DNA of 32,512 bases, taken from IMG/VR virus record IMGVR_UViG_3300015264_000171, positions 1-32,512 of that record; one strand, 5' to 3'. This stretch comes from a virus. Positions 1,778 to 31,587 of this stretch are shown here, one piece after another (the first letter of the stretch is position 1; each line of letters opens with the position of its first letter). The notes under the pieces were generated by a model. It made no database searches, was not told where the DNA came from, and saw nothing but the letters and a program-made list of their open reading frames with translations. The translations under genes and the position numbers were made by a program.

Positions 1778-3844
1778 TTATGGAATCGAGCAGTTGTACC
1801 CGGTGTTGGCCGCGTTCGCCGTGCAAGTCATCGAGACCGCTGTTCCGCCAATGGTCACTTGTACCTTGACAGGCAACAGTGGGCAGGTAGGTGGCGGGGC
1901 TTGGGAGACGATTACAGTGGCCTTCCCGCTCACGGACGGGGTTTGGACCGAAGTAGCGGTAATAACCCCGCTGGCAGCCCCGGAAGCAGGCGTGTAGAGC
2001 CCTGACGCGCTCACCGTGCCGCCCGTAGCCGTCCACGTGACCGCTGGATTGAAGGTTCCAGTACCCTGCACGACGACGGAGCATTGGCTCGTGGCCGTGG
2101 GTTGGATGGGCGACGGGCAGGTTGTCGTGACGCTCGTCACTACCGGGTTGACCGGAGGTCGCGGGTCGCCGCCCACCTTCACGAACGTTCCGTTCGCGGT
2201 GTACTCCCACCACAGCCCTTTCGCGTTCTCCTGGTAGATAAACCCGTTGTACCAGAGCAGGAGCGTCGCGGCGGTGCCCGCCAAAGGTGTCCCGTTTTTC
2301 ACGATGAGGTTCCCGCACGACAGTGGCGTGCAATCGGGATTCTGCGAGACAGGAACGTTCGCGCCAAACGTCCAGACGTTCGCGCTGGAGTCGGTGAGAC
2401 TTCCGCCCGTCGATGGCGTGATGGTCGCGCCGTTCGGGCTCACGGGAGGCGGTGGAATCGACGCGACGCCGCCAAGATAGTTGTTGAAAATCGTGTCACC
2501 GTTCGCGGCTTTGGTGCTCGCGGGAGTTCCCGCAGGGATGCCCATGCGCGCCTCGTACGCGAGCGGCAAATGGTTCGCGGGATCTTCGGGGCACGGAGTG
2601 CCGGGATCAATCGCGGGTTGCGTGAACTGCCCGACGAACGTGTTCCCCGAGCCTTGCGTCTGGTACTGGTGGATGATGCGCGCGTCCTGCGAATCCTGAT
2701 GGCCGATCCAGTTTCCCGAGCAGTCAAGTCCTTGCGAGTTGCCCCACGACGGAGCCATCGCGGCGAGGACGTTCGGGGGGTCCGCGGCAATCGGAAACGT
2801 TTCGGCTGGCAGTGGCGTAGACCGCCGCCACGCTTGGCGAATTGGTGTCGCAACTTCGGGCGTGCCTTCCGCGTCGCTGCCTGCCTCTTCGGCGGTGAGC
2901 GCGTAGTCCGTCCCTTGCGGCCCGATGTTCCCGCTCATGTAGATCGACGGAGTGCCTTCGAGGTCGCAATTCGCTTGGCAGTTTCCCGGCTGCCCGAGCC
3001 ACGCTTGTACCGGATGCGGATTGGAGTTGCCGACGTTCAAATTCCCCGGTGCCCACAGATTATTCGTTATGTCGCTCGAACTGCCGCCTTGCCCGAACGC
3101 GAAGTAGCCCCAATTAAAAATGATCGAACTCGCGAGACGCACGCCATCGGTCGCGACCATTGGAATGCGATGGTCGATATTCGCAAACAGGATGTGGTGG
3201 AAATCCTGCTGCGTGCCTTCCTTGGGCCACGAGATTGAATCGGTGCCCGGCCCCACGGGATGCGTGCGGTTCGGTTCGTAGACCAGCGAACGTTGAAACG
3301 AAATGTTTTTGACGACTTTCGCGCAGCACGGCCCGGTATCGTTCGAATAGCTGATGTACCCTTTGTTGCCCCACCAGCGCACCGAAATGTGGTCGAAGAT
3401 GACATTGTTCGCGCCACTCGTGAGTTCAAAACAAACGGTGCCTGTATCGGGTCCGGTCGGTGTGTTCGGGTTGTAGCCGTTGCAAGTGAGATTCTGAATC
3501 ACGACATCGTGAGTGTCGATAAACAGCGCCTCGCCTTTCATGTTCGCGCCGCCGATGGTGATGCCGCCGCCCGGCGCGGTCTGCGCCGCGATGGTGAGAA
3601 ACGGACAACTCACTTGCAAGCGGGTGAGGTTCACGATCTGCCCGCCCGTGCGAAATATCGCGATACGTGGAGCGCAAGTACTTGGATCGGCAGCCGCGCG
3701 CAAACTCCCCGGCCCGCTATCGTTCAGGTTCGTCACTTCTAAAATCGTTCCACCGCGCCCGCCCACCGACGTAGCGCCGCCGCCTTGCGCGCCGAGAAAC
3801 GCGGGGAGAACGATCTGTGCGAGAAGCAGGGCGTGAGTCAGCAT
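1778..3844 (-). CDS. Secreted pectate-lyase-like beta-helix protein with Ig-like domain
   Basis: The 688-aa protein has a signal peptide at residues 1-19 (LTHALLLAQ hydrophobic core, cleavage near LGA). Residues 20-330 resemble polysaccharide lyase family 1: GGRGGTILEVTNLNDSGPGS, then FRTGGQI, LTIAAQTAPGGGITIGG and a series of beta-helix rungs (NVIFDHISVRWW, VVKNISFQRSLVY). A variable middle region follows. An Ig-like repeat at about 570-646 (AVTWTATGGTVSASGLYTP) is of a type common in Acidobacteriota secreted proteins, and a Cys-containing tail ends the protein. It probably cleaves or binds host surface polysaccharide; the exact substrate is unknown. The start at 3844 has GGGAG about five bases upstream, and the longer reading frame to 3931 lacks support. 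Many Cys residues fit an exported, disulfide-bonded protein. Confidence 0.8.
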   Translation of the reverse strand: MLTHALLLAQIVLPAFLGAQGGGATSVGGRGGTILEVTNLNDSGPGSLRAAADPSTCAPRIAIFRTGGQIVNLTRLQVSCPFLTIAAQTAPGGGITIGGANMKGEALFIDTHDVVIQNLTCNGYNPNTPTGPDTGTVCFELTSGANNVIFDHISVRWWGNKGYISYSNDTGPCCAKVVKNISFQRSLVYEPNRTHPVGPGTDSISWPKEGTQQDFHHILFANIDHRIPMVATDGVRLASSIIFNWGYFAFGQGGSSSDITNNLWAPGNLNVGNSNPHPVQAWLGQPGNCQANCDLEGTPSIYMSGNIGPQGTDYALTAEEAGSDAEGTPEVATPIRQAWRRSTPLPAETFPIAADPPNVLAAMAPSWGNSQGLDCSGNWIGHQDSQDARIIHQYQTQGSGNTFVGQFTQPAIDPGTPCPEDPANHLPLAYEARMGIPAGTPASTKAANGDTIFNNYLGGVASIPPPPVSPNGATITPSTGGSLTDSSANVWTFGANVPVSQNPDCTPLSCGNLIVKNGTPLAGTAATLLLWYNGFIYQENAKGLWWEYTANGTFVKVGGDPRPPVNPVVTSVTTTCPSPIQPTATSQCSVVVQGTGTFNPAVTWTATGGTVSASGLYTPASGAASGVITATSVQTPSVSGKATVIVSQAPPPTCPLLPVKVQVTIGGTAVSMTCTANAANTGYNCSIP

Positions 3845-3852
3845 TTGTCTCC

Positions 3853-5214
3853 CTAATTGTTTACGTAAACTGGATTCCCGGAAACCACTCCGGTGATAAC
3901 TCGCGGGACCCCCGCCGCTTGCGAGTCCCAATTGTTCAGTGCTCCAGAGATGCGCGTACCATTTACGCCTCCGTAGAACGGCACTCTTACGTTGAACGTC
4001 GCAATGGGTGCTGGCCCGCTCGGACCCTGTGTCGGGGCGAATTGGCCGCCATCCATGACTAGGTTGAGGATCTGCAATCCCAACTGGTCAATGTCCCACG
4101 TCGCGCGACGCCCACGCCCGCCGCCCGCCCAGAAGTTTGGGTTGCTCCAGACGTTGAACAGGTCCTCGATGATCGTCGTGCGCACCCCGCGCTTTTTGTT
4201 CGCGTCGGTGTATACGCCCGCTGCGAATCCGCTGTCGTCCGCGACTTGCGCGTTGCCGATAAACTCGGTGAACAGGCTGGCGAACCGGCACCCGCTGAGA
4301 ATGTCCTGCGTGCCCACTTCCCCGAGGATCGCATACGGGGCGCTAAGATAGGTTTTCCCGCTGAACACTGCGCCCGTCACGCGTGCGGTTCCGTTGACCG
4401 CAATGGACGCTTGTGACTGCCCGCTAAACATGAAATCGTGAAAGCAGATGTCGCCTTCGAGCACGGTGTGCGGCTGGTCCCAGTATGCGCCGATGGTGCC
4501 GCCAAACGCGCGAGGCCGAATATGGTTGGTGTGATCGCCGATGAAATTCCAACACTTCCCGAAGCCTGAAGCCTCTACGTCTAGAGTACGAAGCCGCGCA
4601 CCCCACGCGATGCCCGTCATCGCAACGGGTACGGTGCCAATCGCCGGGAGCAGGTTCGCGATGCTTGGAAAGAATCCGACCTTCTCCATGTCGCCGCTAA
4701 ACTCCGCCAGGCCAGCGTATCGGCCTAGCCCGTTTGCTCGCGTTCCAATCGGGTCGCCGCACGCGATGAGCGGGACGCCTGCACCGAAATCTCGCCCAGC
4801 CTTGACTACCGACAGCCTCGCGCCATCGCCGCGAATCGCAACGCCTCCGCTCATGGTTGTGTTGGTTTCGCTGAAAGACGGAATCGTCAGCGGGAGATTA
4901 CGCCGCGAACCAACGACGTAGATACCAGCCGGAATATATGCCGTTCCCGTCATCAACGCCGCTTGAATCGCGAGCCACGCAATGTCGAGATTCGGGACAT
5001 CGGCGTTCGTCAGCGCGTACGCTCCGGTGGGGCTTGTGAAGATTGGCCCGGTAATCCAGCCAAAAGGATTGACGCCATTCAGCGACAGTGCGGCGATACC
5101 CGCTAGCGTCGTGATGCCGAAGAAAAAAGGCAGCCCTGAAAACGCATCTCCTACGACGTGCGGGTTCCCGTCATTGATGGTGAATCCGCCCGCGTAGATG
5201 TTTACGTCGTTCAT
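3853..5214 (-). CDS. Tailspike-like protein with pectate-lyase superfamily beta-helix
   Basis: The 453-aa protein has a short N-terminal region (possible particle-binding part). At about residues 78-115 it has the Pectate_lyase_3-type opening (IAWLAIQAAL, then AYIPAGIYVVGS), the usual AIQAAI...PAGTY signature of phage tailspike beta-helices. Repeating Gly/Val-rich rungs continue to about residue 430. Unlike its neighbours on both sides it has no signal peptide. It starts with ATG at 5214 immediately after the upstream TGA, so translation is probably coupled. Expected role: trimeric receptor-binding or depolymerase spike acting on host surface glycan. Catalytic residues cannot be assigned by eye. 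Confidence 0.7.
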   Translation of the reverse strand: MNDVNIYAGGFTINDGNPHVVGDAFSGLPFFFGITTLAGIAALSLNGVNPFGWITGPIFTSPTGAYALTNADVPNLDIAWLAIQAALMTGTAYIPAGIYVVGSRRNLPLTIPSFSETNTTMSGGVAIRGDGARLSVVKAGRDFGAGVPLIACGDPIGTRANGLGRYAGLAEFSGDMEKVGFFPSIANLLPAIGTVPVAMTGIAWGARLRTLDVEASGFGKCWNFIGDHTNHIRPRAFGGTIGAYWDQPHTVLEGDICFHDFMFSGQSQASIAVNGTARVTGAVFSGKTYLSAPYAILGEVGTQDILSGCRFASLFTEFIGNAQVADDSGFAAGVYTDANKKRGVRTTIIEDLFNVWSNPNFWAGGGRGRRATWDIDQLGLQILNLVMDGGQFAPTQGPSGPAPIATFNVRVPFYGGVNGTRISGALNNWDSQAAGVPRVITGVVSGNPVYVNN

Positions 5215-22099: not shown

Positions 22100-23065
22100 C
22101 TACGGCCCGTAACTCCAGAAAACGCCGGGCCAAGTCGTCGCACCCGCGCTGAACCGTTGCGTGCTCTTGAACAACAGCACTTCGGTTTTGAAGTCGTCGT
22201 CAGTCGCGGCCATGAGCGGTTCGCGCTCGTAATACTTCATCTGGTGGCCCTCTTTCTCCGCGATCAAACCCCAACCAGAAGTCGAGGTGAGATAGTTGAG
22301 TTCGAGCCCCTGCAAGTTTTCCGCTTGCAGCCAATTCAAATCGTTGTTGGCATTTCCAACCGAACCGGGCGTGCCCAACAGTTCGCGCACGAGCCGACGA
22401 AGTTCGGGAGGATGCGGCAGGTGGCGCGGATGAACGTGAACCGGAATTCCGCGACCATCTGGCATACGCGCGAAAATGTTAATCGCTTGCTGCAACGCGG
22501 TGTCGCCGAGGTCGGTGTCGGGGTTCGGGCGATTCGGATAGGTGCCCGCCGCCGAAATGATATTCGCAATGCCCGGCGCGGTCGCTGTCGCTTGCGTGCC
22601 ACCGAGCAACGGGTGCGCGATGTTGAACAGCGTTACGCCGTCGTTCGTTGTGATGAGCGTGCCGCCGAGGTTGAACAGTGAGCAGCACACCGCCTCGCGA
22701 CCGAACAGCCCGGAGCGCGCGTGAGACTTGGGAAGTTGCTTAACGATGCCGTATTTGTCGTCCGCGATAAGCTGGCGCGTGACTTCGGAGATCAACCCGT
22801 ACTGTTGATGCAGATACTTTTTCGTGCCGCCTTGCACCATCGAGTCCACGATAGGCGGTGAGCCTTCGGGCATTAGCGGCATCGGCCCGGTGCCCGAGAG
22901 TTCGTAGTCAATCTCGTAGGCGTCCTCGCTGGTCATCTCGTTCATGTAGTGCGGGTACTGCGGCGCGTGCTCTTTGAGGTCAAAGAATTGAACAAAGATG
23001 TGCCGGAGACCGGGCGCGAGGAGCGGCGGGAAGTTGTTTCTGGACATCACACCAAAAGGTGCCAT
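22100..23065 (-). CDS. Major capsid protein (Mu gpT-like, HK97 fold)
   Basis: The 321-aa protein has features of the Mu gpT / HK97-type capsid family: YEIDYELSGTGPMPLMPEGS early (E-loop region), LISEVTRQLIADDKYGI (spine-helix area), then the family landmark TNDGVTLFNIAHPLLGGTQA and a C-terminal part with KEGHQMKYYEREPLMAATDD. The start at 23065 follows a strong AGGAGG at about seven bases, fitting a very highly made protein. It lies downstream of the scaffold candidate and two head proteins, as expected in a head operon. It assembles the icosahedral shell. Confidence 0.8.
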   Translation of the reverse strand: MAPFGVMSRNNFPPLLAPGLRHIFVQFFDLKEHAPQYPHYMNEMTSEDAYEIDYELSGTGPMPLMPEGSPPIVDSMVQGGTKKYLHQQYGLISEVTRQLIADDKYGIVKQLPKSHARSGLFGREAVCCSLFNLGGTLITTNDGVTLFNIAHPLLGGTQATATAPGIANIISAAGTYPNRPNPDTDLGDTALQQAINIFARMPDGRGIPVHVHPRHLPHPPELRRLVRELLGTPGSVGNANNDLNWLQAENLQGLELNYLTSTSGWGLIAEKEGHQMKYYEREPLMAATDDDFKTEVLLFKSTQRFSAGATTWPGVFWSYGP

Positions 23066-25228: not shown

Positions 25229-25515
25229 CGCGATTCGCTCCACTCGCGCAACTCATCCGACAAATCGCGCAGCCGTTCAAGCACCGCAATCTGCCCACGG
25301 CAGAAGTTTGTCAGTTCCATAGTTGGCGTGTTGTGTATCACGTCATACTCCAGCGCCACTCGGAGCGTCTCCAGGTCCGCCAGCATTCGAGGGAAGGCCG
25401 GGTGTTGCACCAGGGACAGCGCTTGCGCCACGTCCGCGAATAAACTGGGCCACCTCTGCGAGTCGGTCGGTAGGTTGCTGTTGCGCGGGTCCTGCTTGCG
25501 CGGGCGCTTTGGCAT
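25225..25515 (-). CDS. Hypothetical helical protein overlapping the portal 3' end
   Basis: The proposed 96-aa product starts at 25515 (AGGA about eight bases upstream). Its first part (KRPRKQDPRNSNLP) overlaps the low-complexity portal tail in another frame; the helical C-terminal 53 residues (LADLETLRVALEYDVIHNT, GQIAVLERLRDLSDELREW) look coding. A shorter product from ATG 25386 is possible but has no ribosome site. The stop overlaps the 65-aa gene start. Real gene likely, start uncertain. Function unknown. Confidence 0.5.
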   Translation of the reverse strand: MPKRPRKQDPRNSNLPTDSQRWPSLFADVAQALSLVQHPAFPRMLADLETLRVALEYDVIHNTPTMELTNFCRGQIAVLERLRDLSDELREWSESR

Positions 25516-27406
25516 TCGGTTGTTCCTGTTCTGCGGGAAACTCGATGTTCGGCACGAACTCTTCGGGACTGTCGGAGACTTCAAACTCGCGAATCAAGTC
25601 CTGCATGAGATGGCATTTGCCAATCGCAGTTTCCTTCAGCCATTTTTTGTAGAATGCGGGAAGCGATGCGTTTTCGATTGCCTGAATCGCGCTCGACTGC
25701 GCCTTTACGTAGGCGTCAAGGGCCTGATTGAGAAGCATTTTGTTTTGCTTCGACACTTCCCGGTTCGCGCTCGCGGTCGCCGCGCGAATCGGGATGCGCA
25801 CCTTGCGCTCCAGAAAATCCGACAGCGCTTCTTCGAGCAGCTCGTCGTCGAGCCCGAACATCGAGCCCTTGCCGCCGAGGCCCATCGCGCCGTACATGTC
25901 CGTCAACAAGCCGATGAGCTTTACGTGCGAGTGCCGGAAGTCCGACGTGCGGTGATTGTTTCGCGAGTTCGACTCTTGCAGCACGGCCATCGTGCCCATG
26001 CTTCCGAACTGGCCTTTTTTGTTTGTCGTGCCCGCGCCCATGCCTCCGACTGGAGGCCCGACGCCGAAGCGTTCGCGCGCTTGCTGAATCATGGCTTGCT
26101 CGTTCGCCATCGACAGTTGCCCCGCGCCGACATCGCCGACCGCGATGTGCTCGAACTCTCCCGCGTTGAACGGCAGTGTCGCGCCGGGGAACATGCGCAT
26201 GTTTTTGTCGATGTTTCGATTTTGTGGCGAGAGCCGATTGAGGCCGAGCATCATCCACGTCGTTGCGTCGTTGCGCTGATTCTTCGCCGTGGAAATTTCA
26301 TCTTGGAAATAACTGCCCATGTCCGCGAAGCCGCGCCCATTCATCCCCGACTCGCCGAGTGAGAGTCGCGTGCGCACCAGTGGGATCTGGTTTTCAGGGA
26401 TGAAGTTGAAAACCTGATTCAGCATGGTTTTTGTTTCTTTGTGGAACCACGCGATGAGCCGGTATTTTTTCCGTCCGACGTACCAGTAAAAATAGCACTC
26501 GTGAATATCCCACTCCGCAAGGATGCGGTCCTCGGTCGCGACGACGCCTTTCTTCGCGCTCTCACGCTTGCGCACTTCACCCGGCCCGTAGCGGTCGGGC
26601 CTGCCGAGAATTTTTTCTACTGCGGCTCTTTTGTAGAGTCCCTTGAATACGCGCTCTTGCAAGTCTCGGCGAGTGGGCGAACATTTGCGCGCAAGGAATC
26701 CCGACTCTTCCGGCGTGTTCGCGTCGGGATCGTAGAGCACGTCCTCGTCGCGCAAGTTCAAAACTTTCGGGCCTTCGTACAGCGTTTCGTTTTTGAATTC
26801 GTTTCCCTTGCCGGGTTTGTAGCCGACGTGCACGGCCTCGACACGCTTCTCGGGCACGACGCAGACCCACGCGGTCCCAATGTCCGTGCTCTCGTGGAAC
26901 CATAAATTTTCCACGCGATACAAGTCGAGTTCGTTCGGCTCGTACGCAACGTGGTCGATGAACTGCTGAAGCAGGCGCGACTTCTGCGTGTTTTTGTGCG
27001 CCGCTGCGGAATCGTTCCCGACCGTGAAGTAGCGGTAGTAAATTATCGGCGAGATGGCCCAGATGAGTTGCAGCACGCGCGCGGAGAGTTCGTCAGTCGA
27101 TTCACCGATGATCGGGTGTACTAGGTTCGAACAGTTCTCGAACGGCCAACTCTTGTTTTCCTCGCGAGGCTTGCCACTCGCGAGACGCCGCCACTCGGGC
27201 ACTTTGTGCTTGTGGCGATTCTCCAGTTGTTTCTGGCGCACGTCGATCTGTTCGTACACCCACTTGCAAATCTCGGCATCGACGGATTCGCCGAAAGTCG
27301 TGGAGCGCATCTCGAAGTTTCGCGCAGAGCGATAGGAAAGTTTTGGCTTTGGCGCGGGCTCAGGAGCGGGCGCGATCTGCGGCATTTGCGGGACGGCAGT
27401 TGCCAT
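25343..27406 (-). CDS. Portal protein (P22 gp1-like)
   Basis: The 687-aa protein is of portal size for podoviruses. Recognisable parts are an N-terminal helical region (VDAEICKWVYEQIDVRQKQL), the WPFENCSNLVHPIIGESTDE region, a central domain with QVFNFIPENQIPLVRTRLS and GRGFADMGSYFQDEISTAKN (stem/clip area), and a helical crown-like C-terminus. A Pro/Ala/Gln-rich disordered tail (residues about 630-687) completes it. Twelve copies form the ring through which DNA enters and leaves the head. The ATG at 27406 lies within the last 47 bases of the upstream HNH gene and has no good Shine-Dalgarno, which may reflect insertion of that HNH gene next to the portal. Confidence 0.8.
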   Translation of the reverse strand: MATAVPQMPQIAPAPEPAPKPKLSYRSARNFEMRSTTFGESVDAEICKWVYEQIDVRQKQLENRHKHKVPEWRRLASGKPREENKSWPFENCSNLVHPIIGESTDELSARVLQLIWAISPIIYYRYFTVGNDSAAAHKNTQKSRLLQQFIDHVAYEPNELDLYRVENLWFHESTDIGTAWVCVVPEKRVEAVHVGYKPGKGNEFKNETLYEGPKVLNLRDEDVLYDPDANTPEESGFLARKCSPTRRDLQERVFKGLYKRAAVEKILGRPDRYGPGEVRKRESAKKGVVATEDRILAEWDIHECYFYWYVGRKKYRLIAWFHKETKTMLNQVFNFIPENQIPLVRTRLSLGESGMNGRGFADMGSYFQDEISTAKNQRNDATTWMMLGLNRLSPQNRNIDKNMRMFPGATLPFNAGEFEHIAVGDVGAGQLSMANEQAMIQQARERFGVGPPVGGMGAGTTNKKGQFGSMGTMAVLQESNSRNNHRTSDFRHSHVKLIGLLTDMYGAMGLGGKGSMFGLDDELLEEALSDFLERKVRIPIRAATASANREVSKQNKMLLNQALDAYVKAQSSAIQAIENASLPAFYKKWLKETAIGKCHLMQDLIREFEVSDSPEEFVPNIEFPAEQEQPNAKAPAQAGPAQQQPTDRLAEVAQFIRGRGASAVPGATPGLPSNAGGPGDAPSGAGV

Positions 27407-27884
27407 GCGCGGATAGTAGCATAGCTTTTTTCAATCGGTACGTTTCTCTTTGGTGAGCGTTGCGCTTCTCTCTGTTCCTTGCGTTTGATTGGACCGAGCA
27501 AGGGTTAAAACAAATCCTGCAACGACGCTGCCTATGAGCACCGAGGATAAACAAATTGCTCCCTGATAGCGGATGCCCTCTTTTGCATTTTGTAAGCCTC
27601 GCGTTAATCGCAGCCGGACCATCCCCCCTTAGAATATTTACGCGGATAGATACCGGCTCAAGATGGGCGGGATTGACGCACCGCTTATTTCTACAGAGGT
27701 GGTCTATCGTCAGAGATTTACGGATGGGGCCCACCAACATTTTGTAGACCGCGCGATGTGCGAGTTCGGTTCTTCCCATGTACCACACGTGGCCATATCC
27801 ATTGGTCGCTATCTGGCCCGTCCAATTCCAACAGCCGCGCGAGATTCGAATATGCTTTTGAATTCTTGGTGCAAGTTTCTTCAT
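27360..27884 (-). CDS. Free-standing HNH homing endonuclease between terminase and portal
   Basis: The 174-aa protein has an HNH_3 core: CWNWTGQIATNGYGHVWYMG, ELAHRAVYKMLVG, then LTIDHLCRNKRCVNPAHLEP (catalytic D-H and closing N-P-A-H). A zinc-type motif (CKRGHPLSGSN ... RRCRIC) and a basic Arg/Asn-rich tail follow. It starts three bases after the terminase stop. Its 3' end runs 47 bases into the portal gene in another frame. It is similar to the HNH proteins at 11166 and 11914 but has a different C-terminus. It promotes its own transfer between related phages. Confidence 0.85.
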   Translation of the reverse strand: MKKLAPRIQKHIRISRGCWNWTGQIATNGYGHVWYMGRTELAHRAVYKMLVGPIRKSLTIDHLCRNKRCVNPAHLEPVSIRVNILRGDGPAAINARLTKCKRGHPLSGSNLFILGAHRQRRCRICFNPCSVQSNARNREKRNAHQRETYRLKKAMLLSAHGNCRPANAADRARS

Positions 27885-27887
27885 GCT

Positions 27888-29576
27888 TCAGTATCCCGTT
27901 GAGCCTGTCGCCCTGCTGCTGAATCTTCGATTTTGTTCCACAACCCATTCTAACGTTTCCCGGCGTCGAATGCCCTCTAACGTGCCAGGTGCCTGCCCGA
28001 GCGTGGAGAGCACGTCAATCGCGCCAGCCGGATACGCCTCGTACTCGCTGAGAAATTCTTTTTGACTCGGGTGACACCACAGTTGGAAGTTTTTGAAAAG
28101 CGTTTGCAAGCCCTCGATGCGGTTGCTCACCGCGCTTTCCGCGTCGTCGGCTTCGAGCGGGATCACATCGAGCGCTTTCTTTTTGTCGCGACGGTTGCGC
28201 TCGTCGAGATAAAACTTCATGTTCGCGGCGGCGTCGGGCGCGAGATAAAACTCTTTCAAGTTCCAGCGCGACGCGGTTTTGTAAATCGTGTCCATCAAAT
28301 CGCCGTACGGAACTTTCTCCGCCCACACCGAGAGCAAATAAATTCTATCGCTCTCGCTGTCGTAGCCCACGACGAGAGCCACATGCGCGCGGCGTCGGCG
28401 CTTCTTCGCGTCGGCGAGCGTCACGATCATGCGCTTGTGCAGGACTCCCGCGTTCAGGTCGCCGAGAGCCTCGCCGTCGTAGGTGTAGTGCTCCAGCAAA
28501 AGAAAATTGCGCAAGTCTTCCTTGTCCAACTCGGGGCGCGACTCTTTGAACTTGAATTTGCGCAGCCATGACGGTTTGAATAGCGCATCCTCTGGCAGTG
28601 AAGTTTTATTCCTGTAGAAATGTATGTAATCGTAACTCTGCCCCTTGTCCTCCAAGTCCTTGCGCTGCGCCGCCAATTTTTCCATGCTCCACTCTTCGGG
28701 AAAGATTGGCTCGCCGTGAACGGGATGTTGCTCGCAGCACCCACCTTCTGCGTCGTGAGTTTCAATTTTGAATTGCGGGTGATGCTCACGAATCTTGCTG
28801 TTCAAATCCGCATGGCCCCAGCGGTTGCCGATGACGAGCTGCCGACCCATGCCCGACTTGGTGAACGCAGCCGGGTCGAAACGCGTCGTGGTTTGTTTCC
28901 ACCAGCGGTACACGCCGTCCATGATCGAGCCGTCGCCGTGGAGCATGTTGTCTTGCGCTGCCTTGCCAACCGAATCGTCGTTGATGATTCCGGTTGCGTG
29001 AATCCCTTGCAGGGCTTGCCCGACGCTGCGGAACTCATACGTCGCAGTTGTTTGGTCGCTTGGTCGCGCCCGGTCGCGCATATGCATTTTGCTGTGGTTG
29101 TTCCACTGGGTCTCGCTGGTGGGAATCACGTCGCTGAACGCAAAGCGGAACATGTCGTTGTGCAAGTAGTGCTCGTCAATAGCCTTGCTCATAGAGATAA
29201 CACGCATCGCCGTTTCGTGCGTCACAAGCGTGCGCGCGTTCTGGTCGTGCGCCACACGCATCCAGCGAATCCATTCGTCGCTGTAGCCGAGCCCGCCCAT
29301 TAAATCCTCGTCACGATTCGTGAACGCGAGCGCCCACCACATCGAGAGCGCCTCTGTGCAGACCGTGGTTTTGAAATGAGACATGGGCATTTCGAGAACA
29401 AGATGTAAGTCTTCGGTCTCGACCGTCGAGCACATGTACCAGTGGAGTTTCGCGAGGCGATGCTTTTTCAAAACGAAGTGTGTGAAGAAAAATAAAGAGC
29501 CGAGCGAGTTCAGGCGCACCGCGTCGCGGTAAGCATTGGCGTCATCTTCTGGAAGTCGGAGTGAATTCCACTTCAC
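27888..29576 (-). CDS. terL: Terminase large subunit
   Basis: The 562-aa DNA-packaging motor has an N-terminal ATPase with a deviant Walker A (EMPMSHFKTT, residues 62-71), as in many phage terminases. A Walker B follows (TGIINDD, 196-201, hydrophobic strand plus acidic pair), then a coupling-type VIGNRWGHADL (248-258). The RNase H-like nuclease domain begins near residue 399 (VALVVGYDSES with D406) and continues with LKEFYLAPDAAAN, with acidic residues placed for metal binding. The start is GTG at 29576, overlapping the stop of the small gene before it (GTGA). It works with the portal. No small terminase subunit could be recognised. Confidence 0.9.
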   Translation of the reverse strand: MKWNSLRLPEDDANAYRDAVRLNSLGSLFFFTHFVLKKHRLAKLHWYMCSTVETEDLHLVLEMPMSHFKTTVCTEALSMWWALAFTNRDEDLMGGLGYSDEWIRWMRVAHDQNARTLVTHETAMRVISMSKAIDEHYLHNDMFRFAFSDVIPTSETQWNNHSKMHMRDRARPSDQTTATYEFRSVGQALQGIHATGIINDDSVGKAAQDNMLHGDGSIMDGVYRWWKQTTTRFDPAAFTKSGMGRQLVIGNRWGHADLNSKIREHHPQFKIETHDAEGGCCEQHPVHGEPIFPEEWSMEKLAAQRKDLEDKGQSYDYIHFYRNKTSLPEDALFKPSWLRKFKFKESRPELDKEDLRNFLLLEHYTYDGEALGDLNAGVLHKRMIVTLADAKKRRRRAHVALVVGYDSESDRIYLLSVWAEKVPYGDLMDTIYKTASRWNLKEFYLAPDAAANMKFYLDERNRRDKKKALDVIPLEADDAESAVSNRIEGLQTLFKNFQLWCHPSQKEFLSEYEAYPAGAIDVLSTLGQAPGTLEGIRRRETLEWVVEQNRRFSSRATGSTGY

Positions 29577-29745: not shown

Positions 29746-29913
29746 TCACTCGCCGGGCTCGCGCTCTGGCTTTTCGCCCATCTGCTCAAGCAAACGCTCG
29801 TAAGAAATAATTACTTTCTCCGTCTCTCTGTACCAAGTTGAGCCAGGCTTCGCGAGTTTCAATCGCTCGCGCGCTTCAGCCAACCATACTTTAACTTTGG
29901 CCCTGTAGTTCAT
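29746..29913 (-). CDS. Hypothetical 55-aa protein before terminase
   Basis: The 55-aa helical, charged protein (RAKVKVWLAEARERLKLAKPG then YERLLEQMGEKPEREPGE) starts at 29913, overlapping the stop of the DUF1376 gene by ATGA. Tight coupling and the non-random helical pattern support a gene. It is too short for a typical small terminase, but it sits where one might be expected. Function unknown. Confidence 0.6.
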   Translation of the reverse strand: MNYRAKVKVWLAEARERLKLAKPGSTWYRETEKVIISYERLLEQMGEKPEREPGE

Positions 29914-30668
29914 TGCGGCATTACCTTGTACCGCATCTTAACTTCCCCGTTTTCAATTTCGTGTTTGTGTTTATAGAAGAGACCGGGAACTTTTACGTGA
30001 GCATTTTGGCAGATTTGAATTGTCATCTCCATGATGTCCGTCCAGTTTGGATCATTGCCTGCTTGGTTGTATTGCTCCAGCCAGATGTTTTGGAAGTGTT
30101 GTGATCCGAAGGGTTGGTGTCCTAACGCAAGAAAAGCTCTCACTAAGGCGGGGGAGGGAGGGGCGGCATGTCCGTTCCCATTCGCTTTAACCACCTCCAC
30201 CACCGCCGCGTCTTGAGAGAGTCTAGTGTCTAGTATCTTAGAGTCTAGAGTCTTAGAGTCTAGAGTCTGGTTATTCTGGGTTTCGTTTGGGTTTCCCAAA
30301 ATAACCCAGTCGGTTTCTACTGGGTTGCCACTGGGTTTCTTATCTTTTGGCGGTCGCCCACCTTTTTTCCCATTCTCACGGTTCCTGTAACGTATTAGAT
30401 TTACATGCTTTAGCTCCCTTATAAAGCGTTTATGTGTCCAGCCACGAGGCGTCTTTATAAAGAACTCTTTTAGAATACGTAGTACTACAGCCCTTTCTGG
30501 TACTGACTTGCACCCAACTAGCCGCGTAATTCTGTTTTCGTCGAGGGGTAGCGGTTTCTCTGTGGAGTAGAGGTGATCGAGGAGTTTTCTGTAGGCACCG
30601 TGTTCGAGGATTGACAAGTGTCCGGTGTCGCGTGCGTAGTCGCCAAAATTGTGAAGATAGAAATACGT
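29910..30668 (-). CDS. DUF1376 (YdaU-like) protein with apparent ACG start
   Basis: The N-terminal domain matches DUF1376: YFYLHNFGDYARDTGHLS, then ILEHGAYRKLLDHLYSTEKP, RITRLVGCK, VVLRILKEFF and the RENGKKGGRPP motif. A Thr/Asp/Ser/Lys linker and a C-terminal domain follow. Such proteins sit near phage replication genes and are thought to help replication initiation. The usual family N-terminus (M-x-Y-Y..GDY..DT.HLS) starts exactly at an ACG codon at 30668, with AAGGG four bases upstream and an in-frame TAG six codons before. The first conventional start is TTG at 30617 (235 aa), which would delete a conserved stretch. I therefore prefer ACG (252 aa), or an ATG-to-ACG mutation. The stop overlaps the next gene by ATGA. 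Confidence 0.75.
   Translation of the reverse strand, partial: TYFYLHNFGDYARDTGHLSILEHGAYRKLLDHLYSTEKPLPLDENRITRLVGCKSVPERAVVLRILKEFFIKTPRGWTHKRFIRELKHVNLIRYRNRENGKKGGRPPKDKKPSGNPVETDWVILGNPNETQNNQTLDSKTLDSKILDTRLSQDAAVVEVVKANGNGHAAPPSPALVRAFLALGHQPFGSQHFQNIWLEQYNQAGNDPNWTDIMEMTIQICQNAHVKVPGLFYKHKHEIENGEVKMRYKVMPQ
30237..30266 (-). repeat. 15-bp tandem repeat in DUF1376 linker
   Basis: Two perfect 15-bp units and a degenerate third copy (from about 30222) encode TLDSK-TLDSK-ILDTR in the linker. The unit length is a multiple of three, so copy-number changes keep the frame. It looks like replication slippage in a flexible linker. Confidence 0.75.
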
Positions 30669-30869: not shown

Positions 30870-31421
30870 TTACGCCGCAGAGCCGAGCGCCTGCGTCTTC
30901 TTCACGCGCCGCAGTTCGAGATGGCCCGAGACTTTCGCGAGGATGTCGCTCTCTTGAATTACGCGAATGACGATCTGCTCGCCGCCAGGTAGTTCCAAGT
31001 CGTAAACATGTCCCGAAAAGCTAGTGTAGATCACGCTTTCTCCGCGTTGCGCGCGCTCCACCTTGTCTCCTGTTGACACTACAGTACCCGTCGTTGGGCG
31101 GCGCTCGCTTGCTTGCGCGACGACAATCACTCCACCTCGGCCTTGGCACGTAGCGCAAATCGTGCGCCCAATTCCCTTGCAGCGAGAGCAGCGCGCTTCT
31201 TTGGAGATGACCGATTTGCCCGAGCCGTCGCAGTTCTCGCACACCAACTCTTCAAGTTCCGGCGACTTGATTTTCTTTTTGCCCACACAGTCGGGGCACT
31301 CGTAGCCCGAGCGAAACTCATCTTCGATCACAAGCAAGCGGTCGTTGAATGCTTCCATTGTGAGCGCGCCGAGTTTGAGAACATTCGTTTCTACTGCCGA
31401 CTTCAAATCTATTTCGTGCAT
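30870..31421 (-). CDS. GroES-like co-chaperonin with inserted DnaJ-type zinc finger
   Basis: The 183-aa product starts at 31421, where AAAGGG lies five bases upstream; the longer frame to 31601 has no ribosome site. Residues 25-35 (FNDRLLVIEDE) match the first GroES strand (HDRVIVKRKE). Residues 95-166 match the rest: GGVIVV at the mobile-loop anchor, RPTTGTVVSTGDKV, SVIYTSFSGHVY, GGEQIVIRVIQESDILAKV. The two halves are separated by a zinc finger with four CxxC pairs (C42/45, C61/64, C78/81, C89/92), three of them followed by G-x-G as in DnaJ (CENCDGSG, CSRCKGIG, CATCQGRG). It is inserted in the loop that normally contacts GroEL. It likely partners the host chaperonin for phage protein folding, with the finger possibly binding substrate. 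The chimeric structure is clear; its function is inference. Confidence 0.85.
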   Translation of the reverse strand: MHEIDLKSAVETNVLKLGALTMEAFNDRLLVIEDEFRSGYECPDCVGKKKIKSPELEELVCENCDGSGKSVISKEARCSRCKGIGRTICATCQGRGGVIVVAQASERRPTTGTVVSTGDKVERAQRGESVIYTSFSGHVYDLELPGGEQIVIRVIQESDILAKVSGHLELRRVKKTQALGSAA

Positions 31422-31587
31422 GAGTACCCTTTCTCGATTCTCGCGTACAGGATCGCGAGGAGGATGCGCGTAAGCCAGTGGTTGCGTTTCACGGGCGCAG
31501 ACTATACCATACCGCGCGTGACAGCGGGAATGCACGAGGCGATGTGGTTTCTGTTCGGCGCGGACGATGCGCCATTGTGGGACTGAC
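31422..31587. promoter_or_regulatory. Divergent promoter region
   Basis: A 166-base gap separates the minus-strand co-chaperonin from the plus-strand unit. It holds a minus-strand TATAGT (31501-31506) and, on the plus strand, TTGCGT (31482-31487) with TACCAT 17 bases later. Matches to consensus are weak, but both transcription units must begin at or beyond this point. Confidence 0.35.

Follow-up and report, generated by a model that had tools for sequence, protein, structure and literature searches.

The question raised by this locus is whether a single reading frame of an uncultured phage really joins a GroES co-chaperonin to a DnaJ-type zinc module and, if so, what such a protein would do for the phage. 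The reading frame at 30870-31421 of the window (the whole stretch of DNA that was analysed, 32,512 nucleotides), called groES-Zn here, encodes a GroES domain that has a DnaJ-type zinc module set into its mobile loop and lacks the roof hairpin (Table 1). The product is likely to be a co-chaperonin, its mobile loop stapled by zinc, with which the phage caps the GroEL of its host when heads are assembled.

Two parts of the 183-aa protein belong to the GroES fold, namely residues 24-34 (AFNDRLLVIED) and residues 97-164 (GGVIVV...SDILAKV). The intact protein scores 23.9 bits against Pfam Cpn10 (cut-off 21.1), with a match confined to residues 95-164. When residues 40-92 are removed, the score becomes 30.5 bits and the match covers profile positions 3-93 of 93, and this gain in both score and coverage argues that one domain is interrupted by another. 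A PHROGs search of the 183-aa protein also returned co-chaperonin GroES. An hhalign comparison of the insert-free family profile with E. coli GroES (a query identical to PDB 1aon chain O; residues 1-97 covered) places the insert near GroES residues 19-22, just before GG-Ile-Val-Leu. Because the mobile loop of GroES consists of residues 17-34, with Ile25-Val26-Leu27 among them (PMC5653362), the insert lies inside that loop. An earlier note, made from the letters of this DNA, had claimed both GroES halves in this frame, four CxxC pairs between them (three in the CxxCxGxG form) and an insertion in the mobile loop. The Cpn10 scores bear out the halves and the translation contains the cysteine pairs, while the placement in the loop agrees with the hhalign result, the split-domain scores, the structural model and the relatives described below.

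Table 1. Coordinates of groES-Zn, its parts and neighbouring genes in the window
Feature	Position	Strand	Basis
groES-Zn gene, 183 aa: GroES (Cpn10) with DnaJ-type zinc module in mobile loop	30870..31421	-	
N-terminal extension and first GroES strand, to start of mobile loop (residues 1-39)	31305..31421	-	Cpn10 profile, hhalign
Zinc module (residues 40-92), CxxC pairs at 42/45, 61/64, 78/81, 89/92	31146..31304	-	profiles, alignment, BSD2 model match
Remaining GroES barrel (residues 93-166)	30924..31145	-	Pfam, profile, model
GVIVV (residues 97-101), counterpart of the GroES GG-Ile-Val-Leu GroEL-binding stretch	31119..31133	-	alignment; role inferred from GroES
Very short loop at the GroES roof-hairpin site (residues 118-127)	31041..31070	-	alignment, profile
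Conserved C-terminal tail HLELRRVKKTQALGSAA (residues 167-183)	30873..30923	-	alignments; pLDDT about 40
Probable ribosome-binding site AAAGGG	31427..31432	-	sequence
Primosomal-protein-like gene	29910..30617	-	PHROG 9327 E 8e-18
Terminase large subunit	27888..29576	-	PHROG 38 E 2.7e-27
HNH endonuclease, between terminase and portal genes	27360..27884	-	PHROG 826 E 5.7e-42
Portal protein	25343..27406	-	PHROG 1216 E 2.2e-5
Major head protein	22100..23065	-	PHROG 371 E 3e-10
717-aa protein with pectate-lyase-like region, perhaps tail spike	1778..3931	-	PHROG 27797

The frame is preceded by an AAAGGG motif, 5 bases upstream of the ATG at 31421, and the start position is the same in relatives. Comparison with the four closest relatives gives dN/dS values of 0.05-0.16 for the GroES part and the insert alike, indicative of purifying selection. 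Conservation in relatives and these dN/dS values rule out a chance arrangement or a frame artefact.

The earlier note had treated the protein as a single oddity. Its arrangement has stood, but it is no lone case, for groES-Zn belongs to a large and diverse family carried by at least 67 IMG/VR contigs besides the window. Four full-length relatives (L001-L004, 57-90% identity) came from a protein search of IMG/VR, and L012 from a profile search. A DNA pattern spanning the point where the last zinc pair meets the GroES loop matched 80 contigs, 59 of which proved to be true members when their translations were read; every one of the 51 contigs matched by a tighter pattern was already among these 59. 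A search blind to the zinc module, made with only the part that follows it, found 23 loci, including eight full-length contigs new to the family, and the module is present in every locus complete enough to judge. Cpn10 scores above the Pfam cut-off in 34 of 36 member records, and 35 member records (fragments of up to 50 kb) hold a single Cpn10 match apiece. No member was found by tblastn with six queries in 50,697 GenBank phages, nor in 84,980 prokaryotic species genomes (one each) searched for the exact tight pattern, which is blind to other spacings; in plasmids only DnaJ matched. Within the reach of these searches, the family thus appears confined to uncultured phages. Several CxxC-rich proteins were set aside along the way: a Microcystis phage protein annotated 'heat shock protein binding' and a huge-phage protein, both without GroES, and the unrelated proteins of L005-L008.

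The zinc module of the window protein is 53 residues long, with CPDC, CENCDGSG, CSRCKGIG and CATCQGRG within residues 42-92. The insert alone matches DnaJ_CXXCXGXG (PF00684) with an E value of 4.9e-5 and 23.9 bits, and the whole protein with 22.5 bits on residues 42-96, both below the curated cut-off of 32.7. In its four CxxC pairs and their Gly spacing the module resembles the central domain of DnaJ (PF00684) and BSD2/ZnJ2, but it is embedded in GroES and is accompanied by neither a J domain (no Pfam match in the groES-Zn protein) nor the DnaJ C-terminal domains.

All eight cysteines are retained in four close relatives with 62-90% identity. Across the alignment, none of the 40 distinct members lacks outer pair 1 or outer pair 4, although the invariance of pair 4 is partly due to selection, since the pattern used to collect members demands CxxCxGxGG, P and G and so preselects pair 4 with its flanking G and P. 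The search blind to zinc is the fair test in this respect. Pair 1 is not part of the collecting pattern; extraction did use GxEC, at the cost of one truncated record. In 35 members pairs 2 and 3 complete the set of four CxxC pairs, and two others have shifted spacing with eight cysteines kept. In the remaining three (L018, L029 and L041), pairs 2 and 3 are jointly absent while pairs 1 and 4 are kept. The insert holds 4, 8 or 9 cysteines in all 40 members. L018 falls apart from L029 and L041 in a tree built from the GroES part only, and at least two changes are needed to account for the loss. In DnaJ, CxxC pairs 1 and 4 and pairs 2 and 3 form separate zinc sites, and the joint absence of pairs 2 and 3 fits that arrangement. 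By analogy, one zinc of groES-Zn is expected to be held by pairs 1 and 4 and a second by pairs 2 and 3.

A GroES beta-barrel fold is predicted for the groES-Zn protein. AlphaFold2 with the 40-member alignment gave a model with a mean pLDDT of 79 and a pTM of 0.65, with values of 55-69 at places within the insert and where the chain leaves it; with 5 close sequences only, the pLDDT was 33 and the model was not usable. The six best Foldseek matches of the model in the PDB are all of the GroES type and phage T4 gp31 is the seventh, and the matches among viral predicted structures include co-chaperonins too. Pairwise superposition (VIA-align) gave Z 10.6 and rmsd 2.8 over 85 aligned residues with GroES 1p3h, Z 10.1 and rmsd 2.2 over 74 residues with T4 gp31 2cgt (about 10% identity), and Z 10.0 and rmsd 1.6 over 66 residues with 3nx6. 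For the insert, model residues 38-99 match BSD2 6ekb with Z 5.8 and rmsd 2.8 over 54 residues, which is modest alone but agrees with the matches of the family profile to the DnaJ zinc domain 1exk (E 5e-4) and to BSD2. The same profile matches Cpn20 and GroES structures with E values from 1e-16 to 1e-8. The best of these, chloroplast Cpn20/Cpn23 (7ekq, E 1e-16), differs in having tandem Cpn10 domains (two separate stretches are matched), and a zinc insert was not seen in the alignment with it. A fold lacking the barrel and homologues from an unrelated zinc-finger family were the outcomes that the earlier note had set against its own claim; the prediction for the protein alone contains the barrel, and the homologues are GroES-like.

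Beyond the insert, the groES-Zn protein passes Cpn10 (PF00166) at its curated cut-off and keeps both the barrel and the GG-hydrophobic stretch of GroES, from which it differs by the zinc module, by N- and C-terminal extensions and by the missing roof hairpin. All 40 members have hydrophobic residues at positions 99-100, and in most of them the hydrophobic stretch that follows GG is retained. It is weaker in two relatives, L107 (5635-6258) and L108 (1364-1951), which have GGGISHAQ or GGLAHAQ at this place, and judging from these residues the grip on GroEL may differ in members of this type. The absence of the roof hairpin was not part of the earlier note and is added here: the loop at its site has 10 residues in the window protein, and Xanthomonas GroES has 9 more residues there than the family profile. 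The loop has 10-17 residues in all members except L012 (3124-3768), L039 (2898-3575, minus strand) and L070 (7905-8606, minus strand), where the site is occupied by a second zinc module of two CxxCxGxG pairs. The window protein, despite 81% identity to L012, has no second module. The roof hairpin does not define the wider GroES family, since gp31 lacks it too (PMC6318259).

The C-terminal tail lies beyond the point at which GroES ends. Within the window's branch (the window, L061, L065, L078 and L083) it reads HLELRRVKK(S)xAxGxAA and is more conserved than most of the barrel.

A gene for the terminase large subunit lies 1-5 genes downstream of groES-Zn on the same strand in 27 of 38 distinct loci, one of them the window. 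The portal gene follows the terminase gene in 25 loci, and in many there are two or three more conserved genes and a head protein. The window's terminase has no match at 1e-5 in the 50,697 GenBank phages, which argues that the phage group is far from the named ones. In a second neighbourhood (L015, L016, L020, L026, L029, L044, L072 and L086), groES-Zn instead follows genes for DNA polymerase and primase-like proteins. J-domain genes occur in 11 of 12 records of this second neighbourhood and its sequence kin, compared with one weak match in 29 others, a count in which several of the 11 matches fall under the Pfam cut-off and the records, being related, are not independent. The records concerned are G009:43762 (L116), G021:27362 (L117), G011:13569 (L118), G004, G005, G016, G025, G027, G028, G030 and G037; the gene is not adjacent to groES-Zn, and in the three proteins that were read the J domain is C-terminal and its HPD is kept. 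No J-domain gene turned up in the record from which the window comes, and no GroEL gene was found in the 36 member records (fragments of up to 50 kb).

The closest precedent is T4 gp31, which is required for the folding of gp23 and has a mobile loop of 22 residues, compared with 16 in GroES, and no roof loops; with longer loops and the roof missing, the capsid protein is believed to fold in a chamber that is larger and more open (PMC6318259). groES-Zn shares with gp31 the GroES fold, residence in a phage genome, a long mobile loop, the absence of roof loops and a likely head-protein client, but in place of a 22-residue loop (PMC6318259) it has about 53 inserted residues with up to two predicted zinc sites. 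If the likeness extends to function, seven copies of groES-Zn would form a ring and cap host GroEL. The predicted pairing of cysteines around zinc, which follows DnaJ, would hold the two ends of the insert together next to the barrel and make it a hairpin, and the hydrophobic stretch immediately after pair 4 would play the part of Ile-Val-Leu of GroES in docking to the apical domain of GroEL. Zinc probably makes the long loop stiff, not floppy. Such a long yet stiff arm could serve as a spacer that holds the lid farther from GroEL, or as an extra grip that adds contacts. Together with the absent roof hairpin it could enlarge or open the folding chamber, the recipe of gp31, and the clients would likely be phage head proteins. 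At odds with a role in head assembly, members of the second neighbourhood adjoin genes for DNA polymerase and primase and not head genes.

One might expect the zinc module to act as it does in DnaJ and BSD2, as a substrate-binding arm by which a protein that is part Hsp40 and part Hsp10 hands unfolded phage proteins into the chamber. The insert does resemble the zinc domains of both; ZnJ2, built from the same four motifs, is a chaperone that prevents aggregation (PMC5818400); and the J-domain genes of the second neighbourhood point in the same direction. However, the insert varies widely in length and sequence among members while its cysteines are fixed, so that it looks structural, and both the lack of a J-domain gene in the window's record and the three members with only one predicted zinc site also speak against such an arm, which we consider unlikely although it deserves some weight. 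A fuller version, in which the zinc arms of all seven subunits of a GroES ring without a roof catch unfolded phage proteins and feed them to host GroEL, making the protein an Hsp40/Hsp10 hybrid, and in which a phage J-domain protein provides a link to DnaK in some phages, is slightly less probable still.

The earlier note had also put forward a decoy or inhibitor that occupies GroEL and blocks or diverts host folding. The GroEL-docking stretch is indeed kept, and a large insert could hamper release, but in most phages the gene lies in the head-assembly block and not among early takeover genes, and the known phage GroES analogue, gp31, aids folding (PMC6318259). The kept docking stretch and the position in the head block are more easily explained by a functional co-chaperonin than by a poison, and inhibition is very improbable. 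A similarly slim chance attaches to the idea that the protein descends from GroES but has given up its partnership with GroEL, perhaps to become a ring, stabilised by zinc, that serves for assembly or as a scaffold in the phage head. The weak GroEL-binding stretch of L107 and L108, the proximity of terminase and portal genes and the strong conservation of the tail in the window's branch would all suit such a ring; most members nevertheless keep the hydrophobic stretch, and some lie in replication regions instead. Taken together, the docking stretch, the GroES barrel and the head-gene context favour a working co-chaperonin.

Searches of the open-access literature yielded no description of a GroES whose mobile loop houses a zinc module like that of DnaJ, a domain combination that this family adds. 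GroES relies on the flexibility of one loop to take hold of GroEL and let it go, and this diverse phage family fills that loop with a module predicted to bind zinc. With the mobile loop and sometimes the roof-loop site filled, both loops evidently tolerate folded inserts. The groES-Zn family is a natural test of what the flexibility of the loop is for, and it suggests a way in which phages tailor the chaperonin of the host to the needs of phage head proteins.
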